DNA of 10,232 nt from positions 3,790 to 14,021 of the forward strand of contig MGON01000072.1 in assembly GCA_001795345.1 (NCBI GenBank), given 5' to 3'. Below, in pieces: positions 1,647 through 8,656 of the stretch. This stretch comes from Chloroflexi bacterium RIFCSPLOWO2_02_FULL_71_16. GTDB taxonomy: Bacteria; Chloroflexota; Limnocylindria; P2-11E. The notes beneath the pieces were generated by a model that made no database searches, was not told the origin of the DNA, and saw only the letters and a program-made list of their open reading frames with translations. Position numbers and translations under genes: made by a program. How positions within the stretch are numbered: the stretch's first letter is position 1; every line of letters starts with the position of its first letter.

Positions 1647-1657
1647 CTGACGAGGTG

Positions 1658-3154
1658 ATGACCTCTATCCGGACCCGCGCGGCGCTGGTCGCCATCGCCA
1701 CCATCGGCGGCGTCGTCTTCGCCGCGGTCGTCGCGTTCACGCTGGCGGCGGGGCCGGGCGGTCCGATACCGCCCACGCGGACCGCCTCGCCGGCGGCCAC
1801 CGCCGATGTCTCGCCCACCACCGGGCCCGAGACGACCCCGACCACGGAGTACCCGGAGGTCGACGGCGTCCGGGCGCTGGAGCACGTGCGGTACCTCGCC
1901 GATCCCGCTCGCGGCGGGCGGTACACCGCGTCGAGCGGCTACGAGGATGCGGCCGGATACGTCGCCGACCGCTTCGCGGAGGCCGGCCTCGAGCCCTGGG
2001 GCGACGGCGGGTCGTTCTTCCAGAGCTTCCGGATGCCGCTCGTGGATCTGGCCGCGACGCCGGTCCTAGAGGACACCGGCGGCGACCGGGAGTACCAGCA
2101 CCGCGTCGACTTCACCGAGCGCGTGGGCGGTATGTTCGGATCGGGCGACGCCCAGGGCCAGCTCGCGTTCGTGGGAAGCGGCTCGGCCGACGACCTGGCG
2201 AAGGTCGAGGTACGCGGCAAGGTCGCCGTGGTCGTCCTGGCGGGCCGCGCGGACCCCGCCCGCACGCTCGCCGCACGGGGTGCGGTCGCGCTCATCTACG
2301 TGTCCAGCAGCATCCTCAAGTTCTCGTACCTGCCCCGCTTCGACCCGGCCGCGCTGCCCGCGGTCGTCGTGACGACGGCCGTCGCGAACGAGCTGCTCGC
2401 GCCGTCGGGACGCAGCGTCTCCGAGCTGGCCGCGGCCGTGGACGCGCAGTCGCGGAGCGGAGGCCCGTCGCCGGCGTTCGAGCTCGCCACGCGCCTGCGC
2501 GTGGCCGTGCCCCTGACCCCGGTGCGCGACGTGGAGACCGTGAACGTCGTCGGCCTCCTGCGCGGGAGCGACCCGGAGGCAGCGAAGCGCGCGGTGGTCG
2601 TGGGCGGGCACCTGGACGGCGTCGGCACCGACCCCGACGGCACCGTCTTCGAGGCCGCCAACGACAACGCCTCGGGTCCCGCGGTGACGGTCGAGGTCGC
2701 GCGCGCGCTGGCGCAGAGACGTGCGGAGCTCGTCCATTCAGTGATCTTCGTCGCGTTCGCCGCGGAGGAGCAGGGCTTCTTCGGATCGGAGGCCTTCGTC
2801 GAGCAGTTCGCGGCGCTCCCCGGGCGGCGCGAGAGCCTCATCGGCTACGTGAACCTCGACGTCGTCGGCTGCTGCGGCGGGACCGTGAGCGCCTCGAACG
2901 AGAGCACCGCGATGGTCGCCCGCGCCCGCGACGCGGCGGAGAAGATCGGCGCGCCGTTCGGGAGCGAGGGCGCCGGCTCGAGCGACCAGGTGAGCTTCTC
3001 GCGCCGCGGGATCCACGCCACGCTCCTCAACTGGTCCACCATCGGGCCGATCCACACCACCGCGGACACGGTCGCGCGGATCACGGCGGAGAGCCTTCGG
3101 ACGATCGGCCGCGTAGCCGCGCTCATGACGCTGGAGATGGCCGCCGGCCGCTAG
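1658..3154 (+). CDS. M28-family zinc aminopeptidase, secreted or membrane-anchored, with PA domain
   Basis: This is a 498-residue metallopeptidase of the M28 (aminopeptidase Y/S-like) family, expected to trim N-terminal residues from peptides outside the membrane. It has a basic N-terminus followed by a hydrophobic stretch (about 8-31), either a signal peptide or an anchor. A Pro/Thr-rich linker (33-66) leads to an M28 N-terminal part and an inserted PA-like domain (about 165-260, with the RGKVAVVVL strand and ARGAVALIYV). The catalytic core shows GGHLDG (H318, D320), NDNASG (bridging D336), AAEEQG (general base E370, ligand E371), NLD (D401) and IHTTADT (H466), so the two-zinc site is complete. 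A GTG at 1655 is an equally possible start, one codon longer. It is divergent from metG and convergent with the ligase gene, sharing the CTAG that contains both stops. Its substrate cannot be told from sequence. Confidence 0.93.
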   Translation: MTSIRTRAALVAIATIGGVVFAAVVAFTLAAGPGGPIPPTRTASPAATADVSPTTGPETTPTTEYPEVDGVRALEHVRYLADPARGGRYTASSGYEDAAGYVADRFAEAGLEPWGDGGSFFQSFRMPLVDLAATPVLEDTGGDREYQHRVDFTERVGGMFGSGDAQGQLAFVGSGSADDLAKVEVRGKVAVVVLAGRADPARTLAARGAVALIYVSSSILKFSYLPRFDPAALPAVVVTTAVANELLAPSGRSVSELAAAVDAQSRSGGPSPAFELATRLRVAVPLTPVRDVETVNVVGLLRGSDPEAAKRAVVVGGHLDGVGTDPDGTVFEAANDNASGPAVTVEVARALAQRRAELVHSVIFVAFAAEEQGFFGSEAFVEQFAALPGRRESLIGYVNLDVVGCCGGTVSASNESTAMVARARDAAEKIGAPFGSEGAGSSDQVSFSRRGIHATLLNWSTIGPIHTTADTVARITAESLRTIGRVAALMTLEMAAGR

Positions 3155-4272
3155 TCCAGGACCACCTCGGGCACCCCGCGCACCGTCTCCTCGCACACCG
3201 AGTCCACGACCTTGTGCAGATGTCCCGTCTCCTTCCACACGCGGATCTGCCGGTCGGCGCTGGTGCCCTCCCGCGCGACGGTGAGGATGTGCTCGCACTC
3301 CCGCCTCGAGCCGAGCGTGTCCACGACGTCGTCGACGAACTCGAGGATCTCGACGGCCAGCTCCTTCATCGGGACCTCGGCCTGCTTCCCGAGGTCGATG
3401 AGCTTCGCGTCCATGCCGGCCCGCAGCGCCCGCCACTTGTTCTCCTGGATGAGGTTGGGCATGTACTTCCGGAAGCCGAGGTTGCGCTCCCGGAGGACCA
3501 GCAGCTTCGCGCAGAACGCCTGCGCGAGCGCCGCGAGGCAGAGCGTCTCCTCGACCGTGGTCGCCGCGTCGCAGATGCGGAACTCCAGCGTCGGGTAGAA
3601 GGCGTGCGGCCGCAGGTCCCACCAGATCTTCTTGCCGTCGTCGATGCTGCCCGTCCGGACGAGCACCTCCACGTAGTTCTCGAACTCGTCCCACGACGAG
3701 AAGTCGGGTGGGATGCCGGTGCGCGGGAAGCGCCCCCAGATGACCTGCCGGTACGACTTGAGCCCGGTGTTGCGCGTCAGCCAGAACGGGCTCGACGTCG
3801 AGACGGCGAGCAGGTGCGGGAGGAAGTAGCGGGCCTCGTTCATCACCTCGATGCGGCCGTCTCGGTCCGGGATGCCGACGTGGACGTGCATGCCGAAGAT
3901 GAGCAGCTCGCGGATCACGTCCTGGAGCTCGTCCTCGAGCATCTTGTAGCGCTCGTGCTCCGTCACCTCCTGCTCCTGCCAGTGGGAGAAGGGGTGGGTG
4001 CCGGCCGACGCGAGGCGCAGCCCGGCCGGCCGCAGGAGGGCCGCGAGCGTCCCGCGCAGACGGGTGATCTCCTCGCGTGCCTCGCTGATGTCGCGGCAGA
4101 TCTTGGTGCCGATCTCGACGACCGACTGCAGCATCTCCGGCTTCACCTGATCGCCGAGCCGGGGCGAGGCGACCTTCAGCAGGGCTGCGATGTGGCTCTT
4201 GAGCTGCCCCTGCTCGTCGACGATCTGGAACTCTTCCTCGATGCCGATCGTCAGCCGCTGCACCCCCCTCAC
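3151..4272 (-). CDS. ybdK: YbdK/GCS2-type carboxylate-amine ligase
   Basis: This glutamine-synthetase-fold ligase (373 aa) resembles the glutamate-cysteine ligase 2 family, close to the usual YbdK length of about 370. Such enzymes activate a carboxylate with ATP, typically the side chain of glutamate, and join it to an amine; E. coli YbdK has only weak gamma-glutamylcysteine ligase activity and its true substrate is unsettled. Visible signatures are GIEEEFQIVD (10-19), GTHPF (91-95), HVHVG (129-133), RFPRTG (181-186), WWDLRPH (217-223), TLEFRICD (228-235) and ENKWRA (277-282). The conserved acidic and histidine residues expected for metal and ATP binding are present. The GTG at 4272 overlaps the preceding ligase stop as GTGA, with GGAGGG six bases upstream, so the longer open frame reaching 4680 is rejected. 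It is the last gene of the operon, and its stop overlaps that of the convergent peptidase. Family is clear; the substrate is inferred from neighbours only. Confidence 0.88.
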   Translation of the reverse strand: MRGVQRLTIGIEEEFQIVDEQGQLKSHIAALLKVASPRLGDQVKPEMLQSVVEIGTKICRDISEAREEITRLRGTLAALLRPAGLRLASAGTHPFSHWQEQEVTEHERYKMLEDELQDVIRELLIFGMHVHVGIPDRDGRIEVMNEARYFLPHLLAVSTSSPFWLTRNTGLKSYRQVIWGRFPRTGIPPDFSSWDEFENYVEVLVRTGSIDDGKKIWWDLRPHAFYPTLEFRICDAATTVEETLCLAALAQAFCAKLLVLRERNLGFRKYMPNLIQENKWRALRAGMDAKLIDLGKQAEVPMKELAVEILEFVDDVVDTLGSRRECEHILTVAREGTSADRQIRVWKETGHLHKVVDSVCEETVRGVPEVVLD

Positions 4273-5651
4273 GCGCGGCCCTCCACGAGGTACGTGGGGA
4301 CGACGCTGCCGTCGCCCGCGGTCACGTTGAGGAGCGCGCTCGAGGAGAGCCGGCAGAGGTTGCCGCGCGCGCGGCCCCAGAAGAGGTAGGGGTCGTGGTC
4401 GACCGCCAGGTCGAGGAAGTGCACGCTCTCGAGGAGCACGGGGAAGGCCTGGCGCTGCACGTCGACGCGCTCCTGGACGACGTAAGAGCTCGTGAGCGCC
4501 GCCAGGAACGTCTGCTCCCACTCGCGCGCGTCCACCGTCCAGCCGAGCACGACGCCCTTGCCCCCGTACTCGTCGTTCGGCTTCAGTACGAAGCTCTCGC
4601 GGTGCCGCAGGACGAGATCGGCGAGGTCGGCCAGCTTCCCCCGGTACGTCGTATGGCCCTCGCGGACCTTGCGCGTCCATGGGATGTGCGTCGCGATGGC
4701 CGCGCGCTGCGCGGCCGTGTACAGCCGCTCGTAGCGGTCGTCGGACAGCAGCGCGAGGCTCATCTTCTTGTGCAGGAGCTTCGCCCGGAAGCTGTTCACC
4801 ACCGCGACCGCGCCCTTGAGGTACGCGTTCACGAGCGGCGCCGCGATGTCGGGCCGCGCCAGGAGCTCGCTCGTCAGGACGCGCCGGTACACCAGGTGCA
4901 CGCGCTCGCCGCGGGCGTAGAGCCGGTCCCGCCGCAGCTCGAGCTCCTGCGGCGCGCAGATCACCGTCCGCATGCCGGACTCTTCGAACGAGCGCTGGAA
5001 CATCTCGAACTCGGTGAGCGTCGGCAGCCCGTGCCAGTCGACGATGGCGATCGCCGGCCGTTCGGGCGTGCGGCCGGCGTAGGCGCGGAGCATCACGGCG
5101 AGCTGATGGCGGCGGAGCGGGACGGCGCGGATCCGCCAGCGGCGACGGAACGCGGCCGTGACCGGCAGGCCATCGAAGACCGCGACCAGCTCGTCGTTGT
5201 AGGCCATCCCGGCGGGCGACTCCGCGTTGTACTCGACGAAGCGGATGACACCGTCGGCGCCTACGAAGCCGTCGAGGCGCGCGGCCGGCGACGACGCCTT
5301 GAAGCCGGGGTCCGCGAGAGCAAGGCGCTCCTCCTCCGGATCGAGGTCGAGCTCGCGCCGGAGGACCTCCTCCTCCAGGAGAGCGCGCTCGAGCCGCCCC
5401 AGCGCGCCGTACAGCGTCTCCGCGACGCGCCGGATCCGCTCGTACGCCCCTTTGGGCACGAGGTTGGGCCGCAGCGACGCGCAGAGGGGCCGCTCGCCGA
5501 AGACGAGCCGGCGGGCACGCTGGCCTTCCGCGAGCGCCGCCGCGCTCGCGACGGCAAGGTCGGGATCCTCGAGGAGCGCGTGATGATCGCGCACGTATGG
5601 CGGGTCGGCGGGGGCCCGCGCGGCGCGGCCCGCGCGCTGGGGTGGGCTCAC
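4269..5651 (-). CDS. Circularly permuted ATP-grasp amidoligase
   Basis: This 460-residue protein has the elements of an ATP-grasp ligase in swapped order. The acidic/Asn metal-binding segment FVEYNAESPAG (138-148; E140, N142), usually near the end of the fold, comes first. The nucleotide-binding strand and glycine loop, VLKPND..GGKGVVLG (355-369), and VVQERV (391-396) come near the C-terminus. In between, VYRRVLTSELL (254-264) and AVVNSF (283-288) resemble segments of circularly permuted ATP-grasp and glutathionylspermidine-synthase-like proteins. The family joins a carboxylate to an amine through an acyl phosphate. The GTG at 5651 overlaps the upstream ligase stop as GTGA; little Shine-Dalgarno is seen, so translation may depend on coupling. 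The first 40 residues are low-complexity and may not be folded. The next gene, ybdK, is also coupled. The fold is well supported; the exact subfamily and substrates are not recognised. Confidence 0.8.
   Translation of the reverse strand: MSPPQRAGRAARAPADPPYVRDHHALLEDPDLAVASAAALAEGQRARRLVFGERPLCASLRPNLVPKGAYERIRRVAETLYGALGRLERALLEEEVLRRELDLDPEEERLALADPGFKASSPAARLDGFVGADGVIRFVEYNAESPAGMAYNDELVAVFDGLPVTAAFRRRWRIRAVPLRRHQLAVMLRAYAGRTPERPAIAIVDWHGLPTLTEFEMFQRSFEESGMRTVICAPQELELRRDRLYARGERVHLVYRRVLTSELLARPDIAAPLVNAYLKGAVAVVNSFRAKLLHKKMSLALLSDDRYERLYTAAQRAAIATHIPWTRKVREGHTTYRGKLADLADLVLRHRESFVLKPNDEYGGKGVVLGWTVDAREWEQTFLAALTSSYVVQERVDVQRQAFPVLLESVHFLDLAVDHDPYLFWGRARGNLCRLSSSALLNVTAGDGSVVPTYLVEGRA
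4279..4284 (-). promoter_or_regulatory. Shine-Dalgarno fixing the ybdK start
   Basis: GGAGGG lies inside the last codons of the upstream ligase gene, six bases before the GTG at 4272. It supports the short start and the four-base overlap rather than an upstream start. Confidence 0.65.
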
Positions 5652-6610
5652 CGTACGAACCGCGACCAGCGCATCTCGCCGCGCCACGGCGGCTCCGCCC
5701 GGCCGAGCGCGTAGTCGATGACCAGGTCGCTCATGTGCTCGAGCACCCAGGCGAACGCCTCCTCCTTGATGGAGAAGCTGTCGAAGTCCGGCGCGGGGTT
5801 GAGGAAGTCGATCGCGTAGAGGGTCCCCTCGCGCACCGCGAACTCGACGGTGTCCATGTCGTAGCCCAGCGCGTCGACGAGCGTCGTGGCGTCGCGGACG
5901 GCGCGCTCCAGCAGCTCCCCCTCTACCGGTCGCCCGACCACGTACCGCTCGGCGAACGGCGCGGTCGGGTCGTAGCGCATCGGGCGGACGTGCTTGCGCC
6001 CGATGCAGATGCACCGGACGTAATCGTCCCACTTGATGAACTCCTGGAGGATCATCGTCTTCGGCCGGTACCCGAACGCGGCCGATCCGGTCTGGTCGTA
6101 GGCCCAGATGAGCTCCTCCATCGTGTCGACGCGGTAGACGTCCTTCCATCCGCCGCCGGTGTTCGGCTTGAGGATCGCCGGGAGCCCGACGTAGGAGACG
6201 ATCCCCTGCCAGTCGAGCGGGTACTGCAGGTTCCGGAGCGAGCCCTCGTTGATGTCGGGGATGTGGGACTTGTTCGGCAGGACGACGGTCTTGGGCACGG
6301 CGACGCCCAGGCGGCGCGCGAGCACGCACTCGAAGTACTTCTCGTCGGCCTCCCACCAGAAGGGGTCGTTCACCACGACCGTGCCCTGGAGCGCCGCCCC
6401 CTTCAGGTGCGCACGGTAGTACGGCACCTCGTGGCTGATGCGGTCGACGATGACGGCGTAGCGAGGGTCGTCGTCGAGCTTCGCGCCGCCCAGGAGCGCC
6501 ATCTCGGCACGGATGCCGAACGCAGCGCCCTTGCGCTCGACCGTCTCGAGGAACGGCTTCGGGAAGGTGTCCTCACGCCCGACGAGCAGGCCGACGATCC
6601 GGTCTTTCAC
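5648..6610 (-). CDS. RimK/D-Ala-D-Ala-ligase-like ATP-grasp protein
   Basis: This is a 320-residue ATP-grasp ligase in normal domain order. Residues 1-80 form a pre-ATP-grasp domain (IVGLLVGRED at 5-14, then AVIVDRIS at 52-59). Next are a PNKS segment (112-115), ATP-binding ILKPNTGGG (146-154, with K148), LQEFIKWDDYVR (188-199), a TVEFAV strand (254-259) and the metal-binding YAIDFLNPAPD (265-275; D268, N271). The chemistry expected from the fold is ATP-driven amide or peptide bond formation in the cytoplasm. The GTG at 6610 overlaps the hydrolase stop as GTGA, and its own stop overlaps the next ligase start in the same way. A GGTGG lies 10 bases before the start. It is not a paralogue in simple tandem with its neighbour, since the two have different domain orders. 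Substrate is unknown. Confidence 0.82.
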   Translation of the reverse strand: MKDRIVGLLVGREDTFPKPFLETVERKGAAFGIRAEMALLGGAKLDDDPRYAVIVDRISHEVPYYRAHLKGAALQGTVVVNDPFWWEADEKYFECVLARRLGVAVPKTVVLPNKSHIPDINEGSLRNLQYPLDWQGIVSYVGLPAILKPNTGGGWKDVYRVDTMEELIWAYDQTGSAAFGYRPKTMILQEFIKWDDYVRCICIGRKHVRPMRYDPTAPFAERYVVGRPVEGELLERAVRDATTLVDALGYDMDTVEFAVREGTLYAIDFLNPAPDFDSFSIKEEAFAWVLEHMSDLVIDYALGRAEPPWRGEMRWSRFVR

Positions 6611-7308
6611 AGGAAGACGTCCACCATCTCCTTCCAGAACGGCCAGTCGTGCGCCCAGCCCTGCCACAGGTGGAGGTCGGCGGGAACGCCCTTCTCCTGG
6701 AGGACGGCCGCGAGGCGCTTGGACTCCTCCACGTTCGGGTCGAGCTCGCCCGTCGCGATGACGATCTCGGTCTCGCGCAGCGGCGCTAGGTAGCGCTCCT
6801 CGGTCAGCCCGGGAAGGAACGCCAGCGGGTCCAGGAAGTAGGCGTCCGCGCTGCCGTCCAGCCAGCGCGACACGGCGTACGCGCCCGAGAGGCACACCGC
6901 CTTCCGCGCCACGCCGGGGTGGCGCGTGACCAGCATCGCCGCGTGCGTCGCGCCGAACGAGGTCCCCGCCGCGATGAGGAAGGGCACGTCGTTCTCGGCG
7001 CGGATCGCCGGGACGACCTCGTCGAGAAGGTAGCGCTCGTACGCGAGGTGCCGCGCCGCGCGCTGGTCCGGAGAGCGGTCCTTCGCGTAGAACGACTCGG
7101 CATCCACGCTGTCCACGCACCAGAGCTGGAGCCAGCCGCCGTCGATGCGCGGGGCCATGTGCGCGACGAGACCGAAGTCCTCCCACTGGTAGAAGCGGCC
7201 CCGGGAGGTCGGGAAGACGAGGACGGGCGTCCCGCGGTCGCCGAAGACGAGCAGCTCCATGTCGCGCTCGAGGGCCGGGCTCCACCACTTTCGGTGCTGG
7301 CGGTGCAT
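6607..7308 (-). CDS. Alpha/beta-hydrolase, esterase-D-like
   Basis: This cytoplasmic serine hydrolase (233 aa) has no signal peptide and resembles the esterase-D/PF00756 type. The nucleophile elbow is G-T-S-F-G (115-119, Ser117) after a hydrophobic strand. The likely acid is D190 in ATGELDP, and the likely base is H220 in GWAHDWPFW. An oxyanion-hole strand VLVFPTSRG lies at 29-37. The ATG at 7308 forms TGATG with the rsmI stop, and AAGGGGAG eight bases upstream is a good ribosome binding site. Its stop overlaps the ATP-grasp gene start. Its place as first gene of the ligase set suggests it hydrolyses, releases or transfers an ester or amide in the same pathway, which is inference. A stand-alone esterase is the alternative. 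Confidence 0.85.
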   Translation of the reverse strand: MHRQHRKWWSPALERDMELLVFGDRGTPVLVFPTSRGRFYQWEDFGLVAHMAPRIDGGWLQLWCVDSVDAESFYAKDRSPDQRAARHLAYERYLLDEVVPAIRAENDVPFLIAAGTSFGATHAAMLVTRHPGVARKAVCLSGAYAVSRWLDGSADAYFLDPLAFLPGLTEERYLAPLRETEIVIATGELDPNVEESKRLAAVLQEKGVPADLHLWQGWAHDWPFWKEMVDVFL

Positions 7309-7997
7309 CAGCTCGTCTCCCCTTCGCGAGCCGGCGCGATCACCACCGTGACCTCGCCCTTCGGACGAGCGGCAGCATAGCGAGAGGCGAGGTCCGTGGC
7401 CGTCCCTCGGACCATCTCCTCGTGCACCTTCGTCATCTCGCGCGCGACCGCGACGCGCGCGCCGGGCTCGACCGCGGCGAGGTCCGCGAGCAGATCGCCG
7501 ACGCGGTACGGGCTCTCGTAGAGCACGGCCGTGCGGCCCTCGTCGAGCAGCCTTCGCAGCAGCTTCCGGCGAGCGCCGCTCTTCTTCGGCAGGAACCCGA
7601 CGAAGGTGAACTCCCGCGTGGGCAGGCCGGACGCGACCAGCGCCGCGATGGCCGCGGCCGGTCCGGGTATCGGCACCACCTCGTGACCGGCCGCGATGGC
7701 CGCGGCGACGAGGGCCTCGCCCGGGTCCGAGAGCGCGGGCGTGCCGGCGTCGGACACGAGCGCGACGTCCCAGCCCCGGTCGAGCTGCCCGATCAGCTCG
7801 GCGACCTTCTTCCGGTGGTTGAAGTCGTTGTAGGAGGTGAGATGTTTCGCTCGGATCTCGTGGCGCCGCAGGAGCAGCTGCGTGTGTCGCGTGTCCTCGC
7901 ACGCGACCATGTGCGCCTCCTGGAGGACGCGCAGCGCGCGCGCGGAGACGTCCTCGAGGTTCCCGATGGGCGTCGCGACGAGGTAGAGCTTCCCCAC
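7308..7997 (-). CDS. rsmI: 16S rRNA (cytidine-1402 2'-O) methyltransferase
   Basis: RsmI methylates the ribose 2'-OH of C1402 in the 16S rRNA decoding centre using S-adenosylmethionine. The 229-residue product shows the family signatures in order: KLYLVATPIGNLEDVS near the start (3-18), CEDTRHT (33-39), SYNDFNH (55-61), the SAM-binding VSDAGTPALSDPG (81-93), IPGPAA (110-115), GFLPKKSGAR (134-143), LYESPYR (159-165) and REMTK.HEE (186-194). It lacks the longer C-terminal tail seen in some RsmI proteins. The GTG at 7997 gives the standard N-terminus. A GTG at 8033 would add 12 residues and overlap the divergent DUF3105 gene, so it is less likely. The gene leads into the hydrolase-ligase genes through a TGATG overlap. 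Confidence 0.94.
   Translation of the reverse strand: MGKLYLVATPIGNLEDVSARALRVLQEAHMVACEDTRHTQLLLRRHEIRAKHLTSYNDFNHRKKVAELIGQLDRGWDVALVSDAGTPALSDPGEALVAAAIAAGHEVVPIPGPAAAIAALVASGLPTREFTFVGFLPKKSGARRKLLRRLLDEGRTAVLYESPYRVGDLLADLAAVEPGARVAVAREMTKVHEEMVRGTATDLASRYAAARPKGEVTVVIAPAREGETS
7317..7324 (-). promoter_or_regulatory. Shine-Dalgarno of the hydrolase gene
   Basis: AAGGGGAG sits eight bases before the ATG at 7308, inside the 3' end of rsmI. It is the best ribosome binding site in the operon and decides the hydrolase start. Confidence 0.65.
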
Positions 7998-8026
7998 TGG
8001 CCCGGAGTATCGGCGACACTGCTCGC
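7998..8026. promoter_or_regulatory. Compact divergent promoter region, rsmI / DUF3105
   Basis: Only 29 bases separate the chosen starts of the two divergent genes, so their promoters must lie here or inside the opposite coding regions. On the minus strand GATACT (8011-8006) matches four of six -10 bases and sits 8 bases before the rsmI GTG, which would give an almost leaderless transcript. For the plus strand I see no better than GACACT at 8015-8020. Neither has a clear -35. Confidence 0.25.
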
Positions 8027-8656
8027 GTGGCACCTGGACGCGGCTCCCGAAAGAAGCCGGCGGCGGAGAGGCGGCCGGCCGTCCCTGAGCGGAGCGCCGC
8101 GGCCGCGCGGCGGCGCGGCTACCAGCGGCGCTCGAAGTGGCAGCCGATCGGGCTGCGCGTCGCGGTGGTGGCCGGGCTCGTCGTCGGCGTGCTGCTCCTC
8201 GCGAACGCGGCCGGGCTGCTGCGGCCGTCGGCCGGCGTCGTCATGCCTGACCTCGGCCGCGGGCACGTGCCCGAGGGGTCGGCCATCACGTACGACAGCG
8301 TCCCGCCCACCTCCGGCTCGCACTACGCCGCCAAGGTCGCGCCCTGGGGCTCCTACACCGCGCGGATCGAGGACCCCGTCGTGGTGCACAACCTCGAGCA
8401 CGGGGGCATCGCCATCGCGTACGACGGGATCGACGAGGCCACGGTCAAGCAGCTCGACGGGCTGCTCACGACGTTCCCGCGGAGCCGCTACGGGAACCGG
8501 GTGAAGCTCGTCATCCATCCCGACGACCGGCTCGCCGCCGGCGAGATCGTGCTCACGGCCTGGGCGCGCATGGACCGGCTCGCGGGCTACGACGAAGCGC
8601 GCATCCGCGCGTTCTACGAGGCGCACCTCGACCGCTGCTGCGAGAGCGTGCCCTGA
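8027..8656 (+). CDS. DUF3105 family protein, single-pass membrane
   Basis: This is a 209-residue protein of unknown function. Residues 1-40 are strongly basic and cytoplasmic by the positive-inside rule. One hydrophobic helix lies at about 42-65, followed by an outward-facing DUF3105 domain. The domain hallmarks are GRGH (77-80), PPTSGSHY (93-100) and HNLEHGG (121-127); several conserved histidines suggest a metal or redox role, but this is not established. The chain ends with a cysteine pair (C204, C205). Start is the GTG at 8027; no Shine-Dalgarno is visible and no better start lies before the membrane helix. It is divergent from rsmI and followed by a hairpin. Family membership is recognised from the motifs; biochemical function is unknown. 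Confidence 0.85.
   Translation: MAPGRGSRKKPAAERRPAVPERSAAAARRRGYQRRSKWQPIGLRVAVVAGLVVGVLLLANAAGLLRPSAGVVMPDLGRGHVPEGSAITYDSVPPTSGSHYAAKVAPWGSYTARIEDPVVVHNLEHGGIAIAYDGIDEATVKQLDGLLTTFPRSRYGNRVKLVIHPDDRLAAGEIVLTAWARMDRLAGYDEARIRAFYEAHLDRCCESVP

Follow-up and report, generated by a model that had tools for sequence, protein, structure and literature searches.

The stretch of DNA analysed in this work (the window, 10,232 nucleotides of contig MGON01000072.1 from the Chloroflexi bacterium RIFCSPLOWO2_02_FULL_71_16) carries on its minus strand, between positions 3151 and 7308, a cassette of four genes in the order EST-ATG-CPA-GCS with zero spacer between them. EST (6607..7308) encodes an alpha/beta-hydrolase, ATG (5648..6610) an ATP-grasp ligase of normal domain order, CPA (4269..5651) a circularly permuted ATP-grasp ligase, and GCS (3151..4272) a YbdK/GCS2 carboxylate-amine ligase. 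The EST/ATG, ATG/CPA and CPA/GCS junctions all consist of the sequence GTGA, with exactly four bases common to both genes, so that the head-to-tail arrangement with four-base overlaps given in a preliminary description of this DNA holds at all three. The assembly containing the window is 1.93 Mb in size, in 131 contigs and 78% complete, and those of the window's nearest relatives that bear a name are metagenome genomes of Limnocylindria or of other Chloroflexota.

Families and folds of the four proteins

Family models for all four proteins, together with predicted structures for ATG and CPA, agree with the families that had been proposed; EST and GCS were assigned from sequence alone. EST matches the PF00756 family by a modest margin (26 bits, cut-off 22) and carries a G-x-S-x-G motif, with Ser117 and His220 being conserved in at least 90% of 36 aligned sequences including that of the window. 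Its closest solved relative by sequence profile is the putative esterase 5vol (2.9e-12), while the best S-formylglutathione hydrolase chain reached 8.2e-5 and esterase D 0.0031. The earlier designation as an esterase-D-like hydrolase agrees with this at the level of the PF00756 family, but an identity with esterase D or S-formylglutathione hydrolase was rejected as other esterases of the family are closer in sequence.

ATG matched no Pfam family, and its score against the RimK family TIGR00768 was far under the cut-off (27 versus 143.4 bits). Its predicted structure has a whole-chain fold match of normal domain order, for which RimK and LysX/ArgX are the closest among the matches listed. Glu256 and Asp268 are nearly invariant and Asn271 is invariant in 41 aligned sequences, and we take these three residues to be the metal site. 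Scoring in a large protein set was restricted to the 7,998 proteins with the most words in common with ATG, and at least 7,972 matched; since this is the case despite the lack of a Pfam family, ATG is, as judged from sequence, a large family so far without a name.

CPA exceeds the curated cut-offs of both permuted ATP-grasp models, PF14403 and PF04174, and its predicted structure matches over the whole chain the permuted ATP-grasp enzymes (homo)glutathione synthetase, glutathionylspermidine synthetase and YgiC/YjfC; identity to the (homo)glutathione synthetases in the structural matches is 12-16%. GCS scores well above the cut-off of PRK13515 (515.8 versus 371 bits) and its active-site signature, GIEEE, is intact, with G10, E12, E13 and E14 invariant in 26 aligned sequences. 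This GhExE signature is described as belonging to the Mg/ATP site (PMC2588565). A PADLOC scan of all four proteins returned zero defence families at an E value of 0.01, and a known anti-phage defence system was rejected on this basis.

Conservation and co-inheritance of the cassette

The neighbourhood of ATG was analysed across 140 loci, composed of 60 Chloroflexota stretches from 59 of 77 ATG-positive genomes (one of which, G144, was represented twice) and of the 80 best among 576 confirmed loci with names; the set includes repeats of one genome (such as L062 and L099) and many ends at contig breaks. Inter-gene distances in the locus scan run between matched domains and not from stop to start codon. 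The cassette recurs in several gene orders, and the titles of its loci include Chloroflexi, Acidobacteria and Gemmatimonadetes, among others. The commonest order is that of the window, EST-ATG-CPA-GCS (36 of the 140 loci), followed by the shorter forms EST-ATG-CPA (n = 12), ATG-CPA (n = 12) and ATG-CPA-GCS (n = 11), some of which are truncated by contig ends. Other orders were CPA-GCS-ATG (four loci), CPA-GCS-EST-ATG (two loci) and GCS-ATG-CPA followed by an M29-type aminopeptidase gene with EST reversed (six loci). A diverged relative of CPA, here called CPB (hhalign 99.9% over 347 columns, 19% identity), was found in 14 of the loci, none of which has CPA, and so the three-ligase make-up is often kept without CPA. 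CPB takes part in the orders EST-ATG-GCS-M29-CPB (eight loci, titled Acidobacteria or its groups) and EST-ATG-GCS-CPB (three loci, titled Ignavibacteria or Melioribacter), and replaces CPA in the cassette of a named isolate, Bryocella elongata DSM 22489 (L154). Upon removal of ATGs at least 80% alike, and with 4 kb required on each side, 51 dereplicated loci were left; EST, a permuted ATP-grasp gene and GCS were present on the same strand within 4.5 kb in 26 of these, at least two of the three partners in 37, and none in seven.

Co-occurrence was then counted genome by genome. Searches of 301 Chloroflexota genomes with each protein detected ATG in 77, CPA in 72, EST in 71 and GCS in 114 genomes, with all four together in 61. 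ATG was accompanied by EST in 67 of its 77 genomes, by CPA in 67 and by GCS in 68, and the genomes carrying a partner without ATG numbered four for EST, five for CPA and 46 for GCS, the latter as expected because GCS2 is a broad family. Pairwise Fisher p values ranged from 1e-26 to 8e-51, with kinship ignored. Among 149 Acidobacteriota genomes ATG was found in 44 and EST in 42, EST being present in 41 of the 44 genomes with ATG versus one of the 105 without. This was the tightest pair by p value in the phylum (Fisher, kinship again ignored), and the pairing persists where both matches sit on separate contigs; EST would for this reason act on what ATG makes or uses, and so close a link, seen in two phyla, makes EST look more like a core partner of ATG than a late accessory. 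GCS was present in 32 of the 44 Acidobacteriota genomes with ATG and a strong CPA match in 21, while none of the 149 genomes had a strong CPA match outside the ATG-bearing ones. The GCS thresholds were not equal in the two phyla (1e-60 and 1e-120), and CPB is under-counted here as nearly all sequences in the Acidobacteriota CPA profile were those of CPA.

These data show that EST, ATG, CPA and GCS are one functional unit inherited together across phyla. The interpretation in the preliminary description is partly supported by this, its coupling of a hydrolase with three architecturally different ligases being borne out by adjacency and co-occurrence that are both conserved across phyla; the neighbourhood survey that it had proposed gave all four families together in 61 of the 301 Chloroflexota genomes and the cassette in several phyla. 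Scattered homologues without conserved adjacency, the outcome named beforehand as speaking against such a unit, are ruled out by the co-occurrence and by the locus orders. Distances between the proteins of 40 four-gene loci correlated at 0.88-0.91 among the ligases and at 0.60-0.64 with EST (highest value in 500 permutations per pair, 0.20), which in part is shared species history, the comparison having been made without a control protein, and this is one of several points weighing on the other side. ATG stands alone with no partner nearby in 18 of the 140 loci, a number of which stop at the end of a contig, neither CPA nor CPB is present in 28, and in some Chloroflexota families EST and GCS are distant from ATG-CPA. 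In Acidobacteriota 12 of the 44 ATG genomes lack GCS at the threshold used and 23 lack a strong CPA. Finally, no family recurring in at least five loci holds a fixed position at the side of the cassette across phyla, and for this reason the neighbourhood does not name a substrate.

Accessory genes, neighbours and ATG tails

Two kinds of peptidase gene are joined to the cassette in particular lineages. An M29-type aminopeptidase gene adjoins it in 20 of the 140 loci, titled Acidobacteria or its groups (e.g., L135:10231-11268), and a C26 gene, of the PuuD or gamma-glutamyl-hydrolase type, lies within it in six loci (L126, L127, L129, L130, L144, and L161); these are six of the eight loci titled Gemmatimonadetes or Gemmatimonadaceae, and C26 was found only there. 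Both families were named with Pfam on one member each (M29, 31.5 bits with a cut-off of 27; C26, 210.8 bits). In four Chloroflexota loci (L068, L132, L142, and L147) a subtilase (S8) gene lies directly upstream of EST.

In the window the cassette is flanked upstream of EST by rsmI, encoding a 16S rRNA methyltransferase (7308..8033, minus strand), which has a one-base overlap with the EST start (TGATG), and downstream by a gene for an M28-type peptidase (1655..3154, plus strand), which is convergent with GCS and shares four bases with it at the stop codons (3151-3154). Neither was retained as a part of the cassette. The rsmI gene is near it in 13 of the 140 loci, all Chloroflexota by kinship labels and titles, and is probably a bystander; the M28 peptidase gene is near it in five (L071, L072, L073, L093, and L105) and its link is unproven. 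DUF3105, also considered, had no match in a search of the 140 loci. The listing of recurrent neighbours covers families in at least five loci, not all of which were given a model scan. It includes, as identified from examples, an ABC ATPase (16 loci), whose distance varies widely and which is mostly encoded on the opposite strand, an EamA-like transporter (11 loci) seen only in the window's relatives, an aldehyde dehydrogenase (seven loci, about 6.8 kb away on the opposite strand) and a DeoC-type gene (seven loci, nearly the same ones as the aldehyde dehydrogenase). Among 4076 small open reading frames (ORFs) near the cassettes, the rest of the genomes lying outside this search, there was no LysW-like C-terminus (pattern taken from general knowledge) and no convincing recurrent precursor-like family; the few recurrent groups, in six loci at most, look like overlapping-frame artefacts within one lineage. 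A ribosomally made precursor or a LysW-type carrier near the cassettes was rejected on these grounds.

The C-termini showed a feature peculiar to ATG among the four proteins. Tails with a net charge of at least +5 were present in 20 of 138 ATG ORFs versus 0 of 94 for CPA, 0 of 90 for GCS and 0 of 82 for EST; 15 of the 20 were in loci titled Acidobacteria or its groups and many are lysine-alanine repeats (examples are L122, L131, L150, L136, L154, L165, and L162). Tails of at least 15 residues numbered 69, of which 49 were below +5 and a few were acidic. In four Chloroflexota loci (L049, L051, L053, and L059) ATG has a helix-hairpin-helix-like end, confirmed with Pfam for L059. Such tails and ends might attach ATG to nucleic acid or to an acidic polymer. 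The ATG of the window has neither a basic tail nor a helix-hairpin-helix-like end.

Some loci depart from the general pattern. In L065, L066 and L067 (family f9) a diverged ATG of about 30% identity, with an acidic C-terminal extension of about 100 residues, lies beside a diverged GCS2 gene with no CPA nearby, possibly a second version of the system. The ATG of genome G163 (L062 and L099), the CPA of genome G299 (L072) and the GCS of L135 are each in two pieces, which may be due to assembly errors or decay.

A candidate pathway and its alternatives

We incline, by a little over an even chance, to the interpretation that the product of the unit is a small peptide or amide of the gamma-glutamyl type, assembled in a series of ATP-dependent ligations. 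In such a pathway GCS would activate the gamma-carboxylate of glutamate, or of a like acid, and join it to an amine to give a gamma-glutamyl amide; CPA would extend this product at its free carboxylate; ATG would attach a further amino acid, either to this chain or to an acceptor; and EST would hydrolyse, or transfer via an acyl-serine, a bond that ATG makes or uses. Enzymes with the fold of CPA join a gamma-glutamyl dipeptide or another acid to an amine, and those with the fold of ATG couple an amino acid to a carboxylate. Since GCS2 enzymes form gamma-glutamyl amides and C26 is of the gamma-glutamyl-hydrolase kind, the most economical interpretation begins with a gamma-glutamyl step, and the start from glutamate that had been suggested earlier is plausible given the intact GCS2 signature and the C26 gene in six of the eight Gemmatimonadetes or Gemmatimonadaceae loci. 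The M29 and C26 peptidases, added in some phyla, might turn the product over, and their presence (20 and six of the 140 loci, respectively) fits a peptide-like product. For all of these steps the chemistry is inferred from families, folds, conserved residues, and co-inheritance.

Three other interpretations were weighed against the small gamma-glutamyl product, and the likelihoods that we attach to the four overlap in part. The properties of ATG would suit a protein-tagging system in which this RimK-like ligase adds glutamate, or the product of GCS and CPA, to a protein, perhaps a ribosomal or nucleic-acid-bound one, and EST and the peptidases remove it again. Its closest folds, RimK and LysX/ArgX, act on proteins, RimK being itself paired with a peptidase, RimB (PMC12239564), and the fact that ATG alone of the four has basic tails, and in four loci helix-hairpin-helix-like ends, keeps tagging alive. 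We nevertheless regard it as unlikely: the ATG of the window is tail-less, most of the longer tails (49 of 69) are below +5 with a few acidic, the small ORFs near the cassettes yielded neither a LysW-like end nor a convincing precursor-like family, and the GCS2 family and the fold of CPA are familiar from ligases that act on small molecules. It is rather improbable that the product is a glutathione-like thiol, with GCS joining glutamate and cysteine, CPA adding the third unit as does the eukaryotic glutathione synthetase, and EST acting on thioesters like S-formylglutathione hydrolase. The pairing of GCS2 with a glutathione-synthetase-type CPA is what such a pathway would have; it leaves the third ligase without explanation, the Glu-Cys ligase activity of YbdK is weak, and in sequence S-formylglutathione hydrolase is further from EST than other esterases of PF00756 are.

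The thiol genes of the hosts bear on the same question. BshC had no match in any of 60 Chloroflexota genomes, 30 with ATG and 30 without (3 of 14 control genomes matched), and EgtD was above its cut-off in only six (2 of 30 with ATG and 4 of 30 without; no control genome passed). This gap would suit a glutathione-like product as the main thiol of these Chloroflexota, but it is shared by genomes with and without ATG alike and does not track the cassette. Outside the Chloroflexota, a gene survey predicts bacillithiol in Acidobacteria and Gemmatimonadetes (PMC6282198), and BshC was carried by 27 of the 30 genomes behind named loci of non-Chloroflexi title having ATG and at least two partners. These hosts therefore need no replacement thiol, the cassette cannot simply replace bacillithiol in hosts of the Acidobacteria or Gemmatimonadetes type, and a role as the main low-molecular-weight thiol of all hosts is weakened. 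Protection of amines or polyamines, finally, would have GCS cap an amine with glutamate, the ATP-grasp enzymes process it and EST or C26 release it, the Puu pathway being the model for gamma-glutamyl amine protection. The PuuD-type C26 gene in six cassettes agrees with this, as does the fold of CPA, which is near to glutathionylspermidine synthetase and to YgiC/YjfC, called peptidylpolyamine synthetases in PMC12568646. An aldehyde dehydrogenase gene also recurs in seven loci, but it lies about 6.8 kb away on the opposite strand and its loci almost coincide with those of the DeoC-type gene; C26 is limited to loci titled Gemmatimonadetes, and no amine oxidase or aminotransferase was recognised among the families in at least five loci, part of which were model-scanned. 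We consider amine protection very doubtful.

In comparison with known systems, the parts of the cassette all belong to kinds already known, and operons that mix amidoligases are not a new proposal: in 2009 Iyer and colleagues reportedly predicted, by comparative genomics, operons of ATP-grasp ligases, glutamine-synthetase-fold ligases and peptidases, with which the cassette shares the general idea of mixed ligase and peptidase operons. No description of the exact four-gene combination was found among the open-licence papers listed, with the 2009 amidoligase survey lying outside this search. With respect to the glutathione/homoglutathione pathway, composed of a GCS2-type ligase and a eukaryotic-type glutathione synthetase, the cassette adds a RimK-fold ligase and a hydrolase, and the CPA identity to these synthetases is low (12-16%). 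ATG shares its fold with the ligases of RimK/RimB and LysX/ArgX-LysW, but scores 27 versus 143.4 bits and has no LysW-type carrier near its cassettes. The Anbu operon contains an ATP-grasp protein similar to glutathione synthetase, an alpha-E protein, a transglutaminase-like protein and Anbu (PMC6376114), and resembles the cassette in that an ATP-grasp ligase of glutathione-synthetase type has a protein of hydrolase fold as its neighbour; the cassette has two further ligases and an alpha/beta-hydrolase. Model scans, which covered the window only, gave no match to alpha-E or transglutaminase among ten of its proteins, and the preliminary description was right to set this locus apart from those with ATP-grasp, alpha-E and transglutaminase genes. 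In the E-64 pathway the ligase Cp1B has an oxygenase and an ANL-type amide synthetase as its partners (PMC12568646), whereas those in the cassette are GCS2 and RimK-fold ligases.

At its widest, the small gamma-glutamyl product would come from an undescribed core metabolite pathway common to Chloroflexota, Acidobacteriota, Gemmatimonadota, and Ignavibacteria, in which three ligases make a gamma-glutamyl compound of three or four units with a near-obligate hydrolase finishing it, and which may replace glutathione in Chloroflexota without bacillithiol; in this full form we hold it to be unlikely. The compact genes and the isolate Bryocella elongata DSM 22489 make a search for the product feasible, and the ligases would widen the toolkit for amide synthesis without nonribosomal peptide synthetases. 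ATG occurs in 77 of the 301 Chloroflexota genomes and 44 of the 149 Acidobacteriota genomes sampled, nearly always together with EST, and a pathway that common would represent a large unseen share of bacterial chemistry.

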